A DNA stretch of 21,845 nt from a virus. Positions 6,682 to 12,549 of this stretch are shown in pieces. Location: positions 1 through 21,845 of IMG/VR virus record IMGVR_UViG_3300046011_002023; one strand, written 5' to 3'. The notes under the pieces were generated by a model. The model was not told where the DNA came from, made no database searches, and worked only from the letters and a program-made list of their open reading frames with translations. How positions within the stretch are numbered: the stretch's first letter is position 1; each line of letters starts with the position of its first letter. A program made the translations under genes and the position numbers.

Positions 6682-7942
6682 ACGCAGGCTTTTGTCCTGC
6701 CTGATGGATGCCTTCATTGACCGAGCATCCTTCCTCATGCAAATCCCTGAACGCCTGTTCACAGGAAACAACGTGTTCATCTACCGAGCCATCGAAGCCC
6801 TGCACCGAGCAGAGCGACCCGTGGACTTGGTTACCATCCACCAATACCTCGTTGAAAACAATCAAGCCTTTGTAACCCTCGACCTTGGATTCTTTGCCGA
6901 TGGGATTACTATCACCTCGGACTGGAAGACCTACGCCGCTGACCTGAACCAAGCGTGGAAGGCAAGGGAGGAGCAGCAAATCATGGACGACCTTGCGGCT
7001 GACCGTGATATTCCAAGAGCCTTCGCCCGCTTCCAAGCCATGCAGGCCGTGGAAACCAATGCTTCCGAAACCACTGCCCACGAACTCGCCAAGGAGTACC
7101 TGCTGAACATGAACGAGGTGAGGGAGGGCAGACGCAAGGATTCGGTTTACCCCACCTTCATCAGCCCGCTTGACCGTATGCTCACAGGATTTAAGCCATC
7201 CGAGTTCGTTTTGCTGGGCGGTCGCCCTGCGATGGGTAAGACCTTGCTTGCCCTGCAAATAGCCATGAACCAAGCGATGGCTGACATTCCTGTGGTCTTC
7301 TTTACGATGGAAATGAGTGCTGACCAATTAAGCCAACGGATGCTTTCTAACCTTGCGGAGATGGATGGGTCGCACTTCCTCAACCCCACCGAGCGAATCA
7401 CCTCCGACCAATTTCTCGACTTGGGGAAAAAGGCTGACCTCCTTAAGTCAAAGCCGCTGTATATCGTTGACCTGCACCAAGCCAACCTCGACCGCATTGA
7501 AGGCGAAATCGCCAAACTCAAAACCAAGTACGGCGTTTGCGGATTTTATCTCGACTACCTGCAACTCATCGAGCCAACCAAGATGGACAAGCCGAAACCT
7601 AAAATCGAGCAGATGACCAACATCAGCAAAACGCTTAAGACCATCTGCAAGAGGCAGAAGGTGTTCGGGGTTGTGGTGTCATCCCTATCACGTGCAACCG
7701 AGGGCAGGGCAGACCACAGGCCCATCATGTCCGACCTTCGGGAAACAGGGCAACTTGAGTTTGATGCTGACAAAATTGCTTTTGTTTATCGACCCTACGA
7801 GCATGACAAGAGCAAGGAGGCTGACCTGATGGAAGTCATTGTCCGAAAGAATCGCAACGGTTCACTCGGCACGGCAGACATCCAGTGCCACCTTCCCTTC
7901 ACCAAAGCCAACGAGTTCCCACCCAATAGAATTGATTTATGA
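6656..7942 (+). CDS. dnaB: DnaB-type replicative DNA helicase
   Basis: The 428-residue protein has the DnaB layout: an N-terminal helical domain (ERRLLSCLMD to LHRAERPVDLVTIHQYL), a linker, and a RecA-like ATPase domain from about residue 165. Walker A GRPAMGKT lies at about 189-196, the following FFTMEMS helix carries the catalytic Glu region, Walker B is FYLDYLQLIEP, and the DNA-binding/arginine-finger region reads SSLSRATEGRADHRPIMSDLRETGQLEFDADKIAFVYRP. It unwinds the phage replication fork as a hexamer. The SSLSR segment replaces the more usual SQLSR. No primase (zinc-finger/TOPRIM) domain is fused or adjacent, so host DnaG is presumably used. It overlaps the loader-like gene upstream and the VRR-NUC gene (ATGATG) downstream. 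Confidence 0.93.
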   Translation: MQTYHATAERRLLSCLMDAFIDRASFLMQIPERLFTGNNVFIYRAIEALHRAERPVDLVTIHQYLVENNQAFVTLDLGFFADGITITSDWKTYAADLNQAWKAREEQQIMDDLAADRDIPRAFARFQAMQAVETNASETTAHELAKEYLLNMNEVREGRRKDSVYPTFISPLDRMLTGFKPSEFVLLGGRPAMGKTLLALQIAMNQAMADIPVVFFTMEMSADQLSQRMLSNLAEMDGSHFLNPTERITSDQFLDLGKKADLLKSKPLYIVDLHQANLDRIEGEIAKLKTKYGVCGFYLDYLQLIEPTKMDKPKPKIEQMTNISKTLKTICKRQKVFGVVVSSLSRATEGRADHRPIMSDLRETGQLEFDADKIAFVYRPYEHDKSKEADLMEVIVRKNRNGSLGTADIQCHLPFTKANEFPPNRIDL

Positions 7943-8268
7943 TGGAAGAGTACAACCTCCAAGCCGCTTGCGTCAAGTTGTTCGCAATGCTCCGACCCAA
8001 CGAGCAGGGGCGGCTATTCCTGAACCTCAACAATCCTCGCTCCCGCTCCAACGGTTACTTCCTTAAAGGTATCGGGCTGACGGCTGGCGTTGCTGACATG
8101 ACCTACCTATCCCCCAAGGGTGCGGTGTTCCTTGAGTTCAAGGCACCCAAGGGCAAGCAATCCCTATCGCAAAAGTGGTGGCAGGGGGTCGTAGAGGCAG
8201 TTGGCTACAGGTATGTAGTCATCCGAAGCCTTGAGGATTTCCAACGGATGTTGGATGAATGTTCCTAA
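7939..8268 (+). CDS. VRR-NUC domain nuclease
   Basis: The 109-residue protein is a stand-alone VRR-NUC fold. D53 in GVADMTYLSPKGAVFLEFKAPKGKQS, E66-F-K68 and Q74 give the D-x12-ExK PD-(D/E)XK-family active site, followed by the helix QKWWQGVVEAVGYRYVVIRSLEDF typical of the family. Phage stand-alone members cleave branched DNA such as Holliday junctions. Translation is coupled to dnaB (start ATG at 7939 over the TGA at 7940). A second ATG at 7942 is equally possible. Confidence 0.85.
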   Translation: MMEEYNLQAACVKLFAMLRPNEQGRLFLNLNNPRSRSNGYFLKGIGLTAGVADMTYLSPKGAVFLEFKAPKGKQSLSQKWWQGVVEAVGYRYVVIRSLEDFQRMLDECS

Positions 8269-8284
8269 TTTGTGTATATCTTCG
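8251..8284 (+). promoter_or_regulatory. Possible promoter TTG-N23-TATCTTCG
   Basis: TTG at 8251-8253 and TATCTTCG at 8277-8284 (one mismatch to TAnnTTTG) are spaced by 23 nt, near the Bacteroidota range. It overlaps the end of the VRR-NUC gene and precedes a standard phage leader (CTAAACCCCTAACCC-ATGAAA) that now runs into the integron-like insert. Confidence 0.4.
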
Positions 8285-8318
8285 CATTACTAAACCCCTA
8301 ACCCATGAAACATATGGC

Positions 8319-8373
8319 ACATAACGTTTTGCGTATAAAAAATCGTTTTAATGTTTTTTATACGCTGTTAGCT
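8319..8373. repeat. attC-like site 1
   Basis: ACATAAC (8319-8325; consensus RYYYAAC with one mismatch) and GTTAGCT (8367-8373; consensus GTTRRRY with one mismatch) flank a perfect 12-bp inverted repeat GCGTATAAAAAA (8331-8342) and TTTTTTATACGC (8354-8365). Total length of 55 bp matches short integron attC sites. It would be the recombination site at the left edge of cassette 1, with the crossover between G8367 and T8368. Confidence 0.55.
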
Positions 8374-8728
8374 TTAGGTTTTTAAGATTTTAAACAAAAT
8401 ATATTATGAAAACAGAAGAACAAAAACCAATGGTATTTTGTGGTGTAATAAATATGGATGGCACACCTGCAAAAATGACCGAAGAAGAAAAGGAACGATT
8501 TGTTAAAATGTGTAGCAATAATGGTCAATATAATGCGGTTTTTTGTGAGGATAATTCAATTCCTAAAGCAATGGAAAATCTTGCTAAAATTTTAAAAACT
8601 TGAAGCTAACGGTCGGGTATTGCCGAAGGCAGGGATTTGAAAGACAAAAGTTTCAACCTTGCACAAATGCCCAATAGAATTACAAATGATTAATTAACCG
8701 AGAATGCCCTGCTTTTGGCAATACCTTG
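8368..8728 (+). mobile_element. Integron-like gene cassette 1
   Basis: The unit runs from the TT of GTTAGCT (8368) to the G of GTTAGGT (8728), 361 bp, and holds one ORF and its own attC-like site. As expected for an excisable cassette, its first bases TTAGCT are the exact reverse complement of AGCTAA at the start of its attC (8604-8609), so the circular form would rebuild a symmetric R''/R' pair. It is AT-rich (hand count about 32% GC at 8521-8580) against a roughly 50% phage background. Confidence 0.6.
8406..8603 (+). CDS. Hypothetical cassette-borne protein, 65 aa
   Basis: This small soluble acidic/basic protein (MKTEEQKPMVFCGVINMDGTPAKMTEEEKERFVKMC then NAVFCEDNSIPKAMENLAKIL) has two Cys and a helical middle. 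The stop codon abuts the attC-like site directly (TGA at 8601-8603, AGCTAAC from 8604), the tight packing typical of integron cassettes. An upstream AT-rich stretch (8380-8400) may carry a promoter. No family is recognised. Codon composition is clearly AT-richer than the neighbouring phage genes, pointing to a bacterial cassette source. Confidence 0.6.
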   Translation: MKTEEQKPMVFCGVINMDGTPAKMTEEEKERFVKMCSNNGQYNAVFCEDNSIPKAMENLAKILKT

Positions 8729-8734
8729 TTAGGT
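8604..8734. repeat. attC-like site 2 (long, 131 bp)
   Basis: It starts AGCTAAC (8604-8610) and ends GTTAGGT (8728-8734), a perfect GTTRRRY. Between them are two arms, GGTATTGCCGAAGGCAGGG (8616-8634) and CCCTGCTTTTGGCAATACC (8707-8725), which pair over 19 positions when G-T pairs are allowed. A 72-nt variable central loop separates the arms and contains a smaller TGAAA/TTTCA stem. Length is like Vibrio-type repeats. Confidence 0.6.
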
Positions 8735-8987
8735 GCAGTGCTTCTCACAAACTCAAATAAAATGTCAGATTTCAAAGTAGGTTGCTCACCTTTAACGAGT
8801 AAGATTTTTGCAGGTAAAGTTCTTAAAAATGGAACTTGGGGAAATGTAAAACACGATGTTACCGATACTGCTGTTGGTGCAGTTGCTCAACATTTATTAC
8901 AACTGGATGAAAGAATGGAATTTCAATACAGAGGTAAAACTTATGAGTTAAAGGTTGTAGAGGTGTCGTCATAGCATTGCACCTAAC
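8729..8987 (+). mobile_element. Integron-like gene cassette 2, attC truncated
   Basis: It begins TTAGGTGCAGTGC, and the reverse complement recurs after its ORF (GCATTGCACCTAAC at 8974-8987 against GTTAGGTGCAGTGC at 8728-8741, 13 of 14 matching). ACCTAAC is a perfect RYYYAAC box. No partner arm or GTTRRRY follows: after TCG the sequence returns to a phage-style leader, so this cassette has lost most of its attC and should be stuck. Confidence 0.5.
8762..8974 (+). CDS. DUF7446-like small protein, 70 aa, cassette-borne
   Basis: I chose the ATG at 8762 over an in-frame TTG that falls inside the attC-like site. The sequence MSDFKVGCSPLTSKIFAGKVLKNGTWG followed by KHDVTDTAVGAVAQHLL and a C-terminal beta end (FQYRGKTYELKVVEV) resembles small proteins annotated DUF7446 in phages and bacteria; this is from memory and not searched. 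Function is unknown. Its stop lies 6 nt before the ACCTAAC box. Composition is AT-rich like cassette 1. Small conserved single-domain genes like this are common integron cassette cargo. Confidence 0.6.
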   Translation: MSDFKVGCSPLTSKIFAGKVLKNGTWGNVKHDVTDTAVGAVAQHLLQLDERMEFQYRGKTYELKVVEVSS

Positions 8988-9024
8988 TCGCATATTTGTC
9001 CAACCCCCACCAAACCCTAAACCC

Positions 9025-9270: not shown

Positions 9271-9423
9271 ATGAAACCAACCCCCACCGATTTCCGCCGC
9301 TGGCAAATCCACATCCGCAAGGAGTGTGTGAACTGCTCCAAGCCCGACCATGCCGAAACCATCAAGCCGTGGTCCGTCAACTGGACCCTGCTGGGCCGTG
9401 TCCTTCAAGCCAAGAAAGCCTAA
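9271..9423 (+). CDS. Hypothetical protein, 50 aa, single CxxC
   Basis: The ORF runs from the ATG at 9271 (leader TAAACCCAACCCC) to the TAA at 9421-9423. It begins MKPTPTDFRRWQIHIRKECVNC and ends in a basic tail (GRVLQAKKA). ECVNC gives one CxxC, with a possible C/H pair (CSKPDH) nearby, suggesting at most a degenerate zinc knuckle. It lies 3 nt before the next gene. No family is recognised; the GC-rich codon use matches the phage background. Confidence 0.5.
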   Translation: MKPTPTDFRRWQIHIRKECVNCSKPDHAETIKPWSVNWTLLGRVLQAKKA

Positions 9424-9944: not shown

Positions 9945-10036
9945 GTGCTACTTAGGTAGTCGGTCAGCACCCCGATAATCGGCAAATCCGTGAGATTCGG
10001 ATGGGGGGGTGCTTCAGTGCATCCCCCTTTTTTTTT
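9945..10036 (+). ncRNA. Second structured RNA with competing helices and terminator
   Basis: In order there are GTGCT/AGCAC (9945-9949 with 9966-9970), CCGA/TCGG (9972-9975 with 9979-9982), ATCCG/CGGAT (9986-9990 with 9998-10002) and the terminator. AGCACCCC (9966-9973) is also exactly complementary to GGGGTGCT (10006-10013), the 5' arm of the terminator. Three mutually exclusive pairings are therefore possible, the layout of an attenuator. It shares CCGATAA with the RNA at 4044-4143. No known family is recognised. Confidence 0.5.
10004..10036 (+). terminator. Intrinsic terminator before the sigma-like gene
   Basis: A 9-bp stem GGGGGGTGC (10004-10012) pairs with GCATCCCCC (10019-10027, one G-U pair), loop TTCAGT, followed by nine T (10028-10036). 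It insulates the early region from the gene at 10051, whose own -7 box starts 4 nt later. Confidence 0.85.
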
Positions 10037-10039
10037 GCA

Positions 10040-10047
10040 TACCTTTG
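10040..10047 (+). promoter_or_regulatory. -7 box TACCTTTG, near-leaderless start of the sigma-like gene
   Basis: This exact TAnnTTTG match is separated from the ATG at 10051 by only CGT. Transcription starting a few bases downstream would begin at or beside the start codon. No -33 TTG is seen. Confidence 0.5.
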
Positions 10048-10050
10048 CGT

Positions 10051-10608
10051 ATGGCATCAGCGGAGCAGATTATCCTCGACCTCTACCGAAGCGGCGAAAT
10101 TCGCAAGGCTTGCCTGACCATCACTGGCGGCGACCCGCTTTGGCGGGATTTGGAACAGGAATGCGTCCTTATCCTACTAGAGAAAGACCCCGACAAAATC
10201 CTGCAAATCCATGGGCAGGGTTACTTCAAGTTCTATGTTGTCAGGCTACTGCTGAATCTCTACCGAGGCAAGAATAATCAGTTTGCCCAAAAGTACCGCC
10301 ACCACGACACCACCGAGGAAATAGACCCCAATGCCGATATGACCCATGAAGAGTACAGTTCCCTTGTGGACGATATGTGGGCGATAGCCGAAACGGAGAT
10401 GGATTCTTGGGCCAAGGAGGGAGCATTCCCCTACGACAAGGAACTGCTAAAACTCCACATGGCCACGGGGAATATGAAGAAACTAAGCCGTGAAACGGGC
10501 ATTCCCTACCGCTCGGTGATATATTCCATCGAGCAAGCCAAGGCCAAAATCAAAGCAGCAATCCTTAAAACCCATGGACGTACTGATATTCCCGCTCCTC
10601 GTCAGTAG
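10051..10608 (+). CDS. Sigma-70-like transcription factor, 185 aa
   Basis: I chose the ATG at 10051 because an upstream start at 10009 would lie inside the terminator hairpin. Residues about 25-75 (DPLWRDLEQECVLILLEKDP then YFKFYVVRLLLNLYRGKNN) resemble sigma region 2 (DLxQEVxLxLLE). Residues about 130-165 (LLKLHMATGNMKKLSRETGIPYRSVIYSIEQAKAKIKAAI) are a region-4-like helix-turn-helix. Such phage proteins redirect host RNA polymerase or act as late activators. It heads the block that leads into terminase and tail genes, consistent with control of late genes. Region 2 residues for -10 recognition are not conserved enough to predict a specificity. Confidence 0.6.
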   Translation: MASAEQIILDLYRSGEIRKACLTITGGDPLWRDLEQECVLILLEKDPDKILQIHGQGYFKFYVVRLLLNLYRGKNNQFAQKYRHHDTTEEIDPNADMTHEEYSSLVDDMWAIAETEMDSWAKEGAFPYDKELLKLHMATGNMKKLSRETGIPYRSVIYSIEQAKAKIKAAILKTHGRTDIPAPRQ

Positions 10609-12386: not shown

Positions 12387-12549
12387 CGAAGCCCAAGTGC
12401 AGGCTCGGATGGACTCGCTGATGATGGTCATTACGACCCTGTGCGACTGCATCGGAGCGGTGGACGATTCCAATGCCCCCAACGCATTTGCGGTAAAGAT
12501 GAAGATAGTGGACAAGATTGACGAACTGATTGATAAAATCGAATACTGA
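12361..12549 (+). CDS. Hypothetical helical protein, 62 aa
   Basis: An acidic, probably coiled-coil small protein: KDDEAQVQARMDSLMMVITTLCDCIGAV then AFAVKMKIVDKIDELIDKIEY. It overlaps the gene before (26 nt) and touches the terminase small subunit (TGATG at 12547-12551). It may be a terminase or head-associated accessory factor by position. No family is recognised. Confidence 0.6.
   Translation: MSTPKAKDDEAQVQARMDSLMMVITTLCDCIGAVDDSNAPNAFAVKMKIVDKIDELIDKIEY

Follow-up and report, generated by a model that had tools for sequence, protein, structure and literature searches.

An integron-like gene-cassette array in a phage and its probable place in a phage- and plasmid-borne system distinct from IntI integrons

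The stretch of DNA analysed here (the window) is a 21,845-base IMG/VR virus record carrying DnaB and terminase genes. Our best explanation, which as a whole we consider probable from its sequence and that of its relatives, is that positions 8322-8987 are a two-cassette array in the early region of the phage, inserted at an attI-like half-site, TAAC|TCGCATATTTGTC, and that the window is part of an integron-like system which is carried by phages and plasmids and differs from the IntI integrons. The closest relatives of the window terminase are those of Flavobacterium phages (46.9% identity), and the window phage probably infects Bacteroidota.

When the whole 21.8 kb was scanned for TAAC...GTTA hairpins, exactly two sites scored at least 8, attC1 (12) and attC2 (14), while 200 dinucleotide shuffles of the 900-nt region gave a mean of 0.035 hits of at least 8 and none at 12. 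Our own scan thus placed both hairpins, the only two in the window, far above background, and the central observation of an earlier note on this DNA, that two ORFs are accompanied by attC-type sites, holds. Inverted repeats are present in both sites (I10, 8331-8342/8354-8365; I2, 8616-8634/8707-8725). The boxes are of attC type, as that note had read them, but the cores are TAAC/GTTA and GTTAGCT is not a strict GTTRRRY; the right-hand box (8984-8987) is also present, but it is more than a truncated attC, being the junction with a recurrent constant site. The self-complementary cassette ends had been described correctly: in both cassettes the ends are complementary over about ten bases, and the cassette-end repeats measure 26 nt at 88% (I1) and 15 nt at 93% (I7). 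An Rfam scan of the region returned nothing at the gathering threshold, and standard promoter and terminator scans of the region gave no match. The coordinates are collected in Table 1.

Table 1. Features of the array and its surroundings in the window.
Feature	Positions	Strand	Remarks
VRR-NUC/Holliday-resolvase-like gene	7939..8268	+	Left flank of the hotspot, conserved; phrog_824, 1e-16
Intergenic TTTGTGTATATCTTCGCATTAC	8269..8290	+	Conserved; sole sequence separating the flanking genes in empty relatives
Putative remnant of an earlier cassette end	8305..8325	+	Leader ATGAAACAT running into ATGGCACATAAC
attC1, short class, 49 nt	8322..8370	- (canonical polarity)	Hairpin scan; loop CGTTTTAATG on the gene strand
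Cassette 1	8325..8609	.	Putative crossover to crossover on the gene strand, assuming TAA^C; end complementarity
ORF1, 65 aa	8406..8603	+	Without family match
attC2, long class	8607..8731	-	125-nt core, spacers of 5 nt and 2 nt, inner stem of about 16 positions
Cassette 2	8610..8986	.	Putative crossover to crossover on the gene strand; end complementarity
ORF2, 70 aa, DUF7446 (PF24233)	8762..8974	+	Phage gene family, also found without attC sites
R box ATTGCACCTAAC	8976..8987	+	Closes cassette 2 on its 3' side; position 7 outside TAAC is a conserved T
attI-like docking site TAAC|TCGCATATTTGTC	8984..9000	-	Constant half-site ending the array
Accessory phage gene	9025..9228	+	Next after the docking site; phrog_1411, 1.5e-13
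Right-flank gene of the hotspot	9271..9423	+	Conserved; comparison with relatives

Relatives of ORF1 were found in the same phage only. ORF2 also occurs in other phages beside other attC neighbours, and a search of bacterial genomes gave it a single match, on a contig in a Polynucleobacter MAG (L096). That contig looks like phage DNA, its DUF7446 gene lying among helicase and replication-type genes. ORF2 relatives as ordinary genes lacking the flanking sites, which the earlier note had named as counting against it, do exist in three phage sequences (L010, L012, L013), but the closer relatives have attC; it seems from the former that a phage gene became a cassette. In L009, at about 2435-2520, a sequence that by eye resembles tRNA-Leu follows an attC-like site behind a DUF7446 cassette.

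The gene to the left of the array also matches phrog_5702 (Holliday junction resolvase, 4e-5) and, weakly, Pfam VRR_NUC (0.056), and is common to about 80 relatives at a DNA identity of about 82-100%. Among these, 35 loci are empty, with the VRR-NUC-like gene followed by 21-23 nt resembling TTGTGTATATCTTTGACC and then by the counterpart of the window gene at 9271. The remaining relatives, the window included, carry assorted small genes between the same flanks, which marks the locus as an accessory-gene hotspot. The conserved intergenic sequence resembles a Bacteroidota -7 element. The comparison with insert-free phages proposed in the earlier note shows only those 21-23 nt between the flanking genes, and together with the occurrence of ORF2 beside other attC sites it supports the reading of integron-type cassettes in a phage. 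Two further contigs of the same phage (L002, L003) carry an array identical to that of the window. At its left edge, the remnant reading is based on the sequence ...TTAATGGCACATAAC|TCGTTTATTTGTCC at the same hotspot in L087.

The docking site recurs in dozens of phages carrying different cassettes: both the window and relatives that carry other genes have a captured ORF ending in xxxTAAC and, after it, TCG[CT][AT]TATTTGTC. The stop of the upstream ORF lies a median of 13 bases before this core. When collections were scanned without requiring TAAC it still adjoined the core in nearly all matches, and the exceptions (L220, L221, L222) look like unrelated matches. One and the same gene can stand at a dock in one phage yet precede an attC in a second (window ORF2 versus L004, L005, L006 and L009; L182 versus L194), or be found at different docks (L210/L166, L166/L190, L177/L212), and the end GGTTGCGTATAAC, common to L073 and L039, leads into the dock in one of them and into an attC and more cassettes in the other. 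A whole-record search of a 219-kb phage record gave 17 docking cores and 0 for the reversed control. In this contig (IMGVR_UViG_3300042540_001822; L163/L194/L166/L168/L188) the cores cluster at 26.5-39 kb and 67-70 kb, 16 of the 17 lie on one strand and several have cassettes; no tyrosine recombinase was found in it. Searches of isolate phages and plasmids gave no convincing match to the docking site.

These junctions bear on the possibility that the cassettes were built elsewhere by such a system, arrived via homologous or illegitimate recombination between similar phages and are immobile here. The left edge, read as a deletion remnant (8305-8325), would fit such a history, as would the identical arrays in L002 and L003 and the fact that no recombinase was found in cis. 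However, independent phages have their junctions precisely at the TAAC core and the same gene occurs with different junctions, so that we hold this history to be rather unlikely; it is compatible with our best explanation.

The attC1 site belongs to a class that extends across viruses. The pattern TAACA-N-CATTAAAACG-N-CGTTA, derived from it, was found in at least 120 IMG/VR stretches, and the reversed pattern had zero matches in 33 whole records. A good stem, by a score that allows one unpaired base beside the loop, was present in 111 of the 144 distinct sites. Arrays reach up to 13 sites; 181 of the 218 units delimited are unique, shared units have different neighbours, and the exact 49-nt attC1 of the window stands beside other genes in four other contigs (L226, L260, L309, L337).

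Cassette genes in this class run against the canonical orientation of attC. Of 25 bona fide attC sites, which lie close to IntI genes in genomes of the bacterial order to which a Polynucleobacter MAG belongs, 24 have a C immediately ahead of the GTT core, and this base served as our polarity marker. Both window sites carry the marker on the minus strand and the ORFs lie on the plus strand, so the ORFs are antisense to canonical attC polarity; flanking ORFs at the 111 related sites are likewise antisense, by 97:9 and 80:10. Read on the minus strand, the array opens with the attI-like half and continues with two cassettes, both carrying their own attC, which is the layout of an integron with its genes reversed. 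The earlier note had suggested folding the bottom strands; as single-stranded DNA, the gene strand folds somewhat better than its complement at both window sites.

A tyrosine recombinase is encoded by 12 of the 50 records with this attC class, and 38 show none of this kind. All 12 match the IntI model below its cut-off and, with a single exception, have an attC no more than about 2 kb away; terminase matches were obtained in five recombinase-bearing records, one of them below the family cut-off. The 11 distinct sequences (265-277 aa) have a TAAC|TA site 40-71 nt before the start codon and mostly an attC upstream. Their best family is NF040815 (XerA/integron integrase), at 178-198 bits below a cut-off of 220; the IntI model TIGR02249 gave 143-167 bits against a cut-off of 265, and the XerC/D models also scored below NF040815. 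The closest solved chain is the XerC-like 4a8e, ahead of IntI4. Among six aligned members the catalytic R, K, H, R, H and Y are invariant. The spacing from the K motif to HxLRH is 53-59 aa, compared with 63-70 in Xer and 100-105 in IntI proteins, and hence the IntI-specific insertion is absent. In a tree with IntI and Xer proteins of one bacterial order, a narrow sampling, the phage proteins group apart in a clade of their own (100/97). The same cassette type in at least 120 stretches, some with their own recombinase, suggests that phages have a version of their own of the gene-capture machinery familiar from bacterial integrons.

An attI-like site adjoins the recombinase gene in 11 cases from related phages, and the window has the docking half-site only. 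The docking site resembles these recombinase-adjacent sites weakly, falling in the top 1-4% of TAAC sites by a weight matrix trained on the 11 sites, one of which (L347) was wrongly placed; the likeness is no more than suggestive. Upstream of the recombinase gene in L345, directly before the attI-like site and inverted in orientation relative to attC, lies a perfect hairpin, GTTATGGCA-TCGTTTTAATG-TGCCATAAC, with the attC loop. Burkholderiales integrons yielded too few attI sites that could be placed for a comparison. The window and the searched records of its family, which may be fragments, gave no tyrosine recombinase; since none was seen there, the enzyme probably acts on the window phage in trans.

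A host integron integrase was the mover proposed in the earlier note. A canonical host IntI that captured ordinary cassettes into a secondary site of the phage, giving the kind of CALIN described by Qi et al. 2023 (PMC9892861), would fit the attC geometry and the GTT cores. That paper describes 17 phage CALINs, Polaribacter phage P12002L among them, which qualifies the earlier statement that cassettes are rarely reported in phages. It also reports recombination with attI1 via IntI1 for five out of six attC sites of phages, one of them from P12002L, and IntI1 in E. coli recombined one of the two P12002L attC sites, so canonical IntI could also act here; a P12002L stretch is 84% identical to the window attC1 region, and the P12002L site belongs to the attC1 class. 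Against this stand the consistently antisense cassette ORFs, an insertion point that is one conserved sequence in many phages, and the non-IntI recombinase adjoining many such arrays. An IntI above the 265-bit cut-off was found neither in the window nor in 13 related viral or phage records nor in the 50 attC-bearing records. Since these phage records gave no IntI above cut-off, and since the enzyme beside the arrays is XerA-like and lacks the IntI insertion, a host IntI is not supported as the mover and we think it quite unlikely. The accessible text of PMC9892861 gives cassette polarity only as divergent directions, and no such phage recombinase, polarity rule or recurrent docking site was found in it.

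The sites of the class conserve pairing. In an alignment of 32 differing sites, standard pairs fill 93.4% of the pair cells (31-49% in slid controls), both partners have changed in 11 of the 12 inner pairs, and double-change cells number 129 compared with 41 after shuffling. Across 183 cassettes the first three positions adjoining TAAC/GTTA are paired within the cassette in 84%, against 35% with the ends shuffled, and the ends are complementary within cassettes, far less across a site. The hairpin has the paired outer R boxes and the inner L stem of attC. Its arms pair without a consistent bulge that would provide extrahelical bases on the recombined strand; what they do conserve is a T.G at outer position 7. 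Counting outward from TAAC, the seventh base, which played no part in the site search, is T in 183 of 183 cassettes and usually faces G. Docks have this T in 39 of 48 distinct contexts, which include some chance matches, against a background of 31%. The T.G wobble on the gene strand corresponds to an A.C mismatch on the other strand and could serve strand choice.

That the sites are unrelated structural repeats, whether terminators, a MITE family or a conserved 3'-UTR motif ending phage operons, is highly improbable: the docking core does follow ORF stops (median 13 nt) and precede leader sequences, and the attC hairpins do lie between genes, but the region has no terminator-like match, the stems covary rather than share sequence, the ends match within cassettes and much less across a site, and the genes beside the sites hardly repeat (181 singleton units). 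The terminator or MITE reading was dropped on the covariation and the cassette-end complementarity; the units are diverse and do not form the uniform transposon or MITE family that the earlier note had weighed against itself.

Two cultured phages, Polaribacter phage Freya and Cellulophaga phage Ingeline, have annotated integrases that are homologous to the recombinase (38-41% identity). In Freya, an attC-like site and a cassette whose ends are complementary lie just upstream; in Ingeline, a TAAC box and attC-like sites are found upstream. In a Flagellimonas plasmid, xerA comes after two cassettes that obey the same end rule, one with erm(F) and one with a dihydrofolate-reductase-family gene. 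There (Flagellimonas marinaquae NZ_CP092416, L374 5576-6960), the erm(F) cassette lies between an attC-like site and TAAC|TACTGGATATCC, which sits just before xerA, and the dihydrofolate-reductase-family cassette adjoins. On a Chryseobacterium plasmid (L370), attC-like repeats lie on the downstream side of a recombinase homologue; there a 142-nt attC-like repeat, CAACGGCCAGCTCGGC...GCCGAGCTGGCCGTTA, is present in three near-identical copies (7925-8066, 10020-10161, 12401-12542). The Acinetobacter baylyi plasmid pJAT2044 (L375 2967-4988) carries beside tet(X3) a TnpF-type recombinase with 46% identity to the phage recombinase across 223 residues, which may derive from the same kind of system. 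Among 119 cassette proteins most were unmatched; 11 matched N6/N4 DNA methylases, two MT-A70, one Mom and one NinG, and such cargo would fit a role in evading host restriction.

Under our best explanation, recombination could proceed as follows. The attC would fold on the gene-coding strand, and the XerA-like tyrosine recombinase would bind the 12-bp R boxes (roughly ATTRNNNNTAAC and a partner starting GTTA), cut at TAA^C and join a circular cassette to the docking site. The cassette gene would thereby enter along phage transcription, 3' to existing genes, and would be expressed from an upstream phage promoter. For the window phage the recombinase would come in trans, from a co-infecting phage or the host. 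What the sequences show directly are the sites with their polarity and recurrence, the ends of the cassettes, the dock, and the link to a recombinase in other phages; the cleavage point, the enzyme that serves this phage, the choice of strand and the expression are inferred.

We are evenly divided on the wider claim that Bacteroidota phages and plasmids run a second, non-IntI integron system, in which a XerA-like enzyme without the IntI insertion acts on docks that can be scattered, hairpin attCs are chosen by the T.G mismatch rather than by extrahelical bases, cassettes are sense to phage transcription downstream of existing genes, and phages lacking a recombinase use the enzyme in trans. If true, phages own a widespread gene-capture system that goes beyond the occasional carriage of bacterial cassettes, and an enzyme without the IntI insertion, acting on hairpins without clear extrahelical bases, offers a natural comparison for the origin of integrons from Xer. 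The cultured phages Freya and Ingeline are directly testable cases, and the erm(F) cassette of the same build on a Bacteroidota plasmid suggests relevance to the mobility of resistance genes.

The proposed system shares with the integron (IntI/attI/attC) cassettes of one small gene and a hairpin attC each, end complementarity, tandem arrays, an attI-like constant site and a tyrosine recombinase adjoining attI. It differs from it in being phage-borne, in its XerA-like enzyme below the IntI cut-off and without the IntI insertion, in ORFs antisense to attC polarity, in the conserved T.G at outer-stem position 7 in place of clear extrahelical bases, and in docking sites that can be multiple and far from any recombinase. 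The phage CALINs, in the accessible text of PMC9892861, likewise combine attC sites and cassettes in phages, with the same attC class in P12002L, but are reported there with neither a recombinase of the phage kind nor a recurrent docking site. XerA, XerC and XerD are close by best family (NF040815) and nearest solved chain (4a8e), whereas the phage enzyme stands beside hairpin-site cassette arrays, has a shorter spacing and forms its own clade. Finally, in the pdif modules of Acinetobacter (PMC7399989), resistance genes are likewise thought to be moved as modules by Xer-type recombination, but their flanking sites are dif-like and double-stranded, in contrast to the hairpin attC sites of the phage cassettes.
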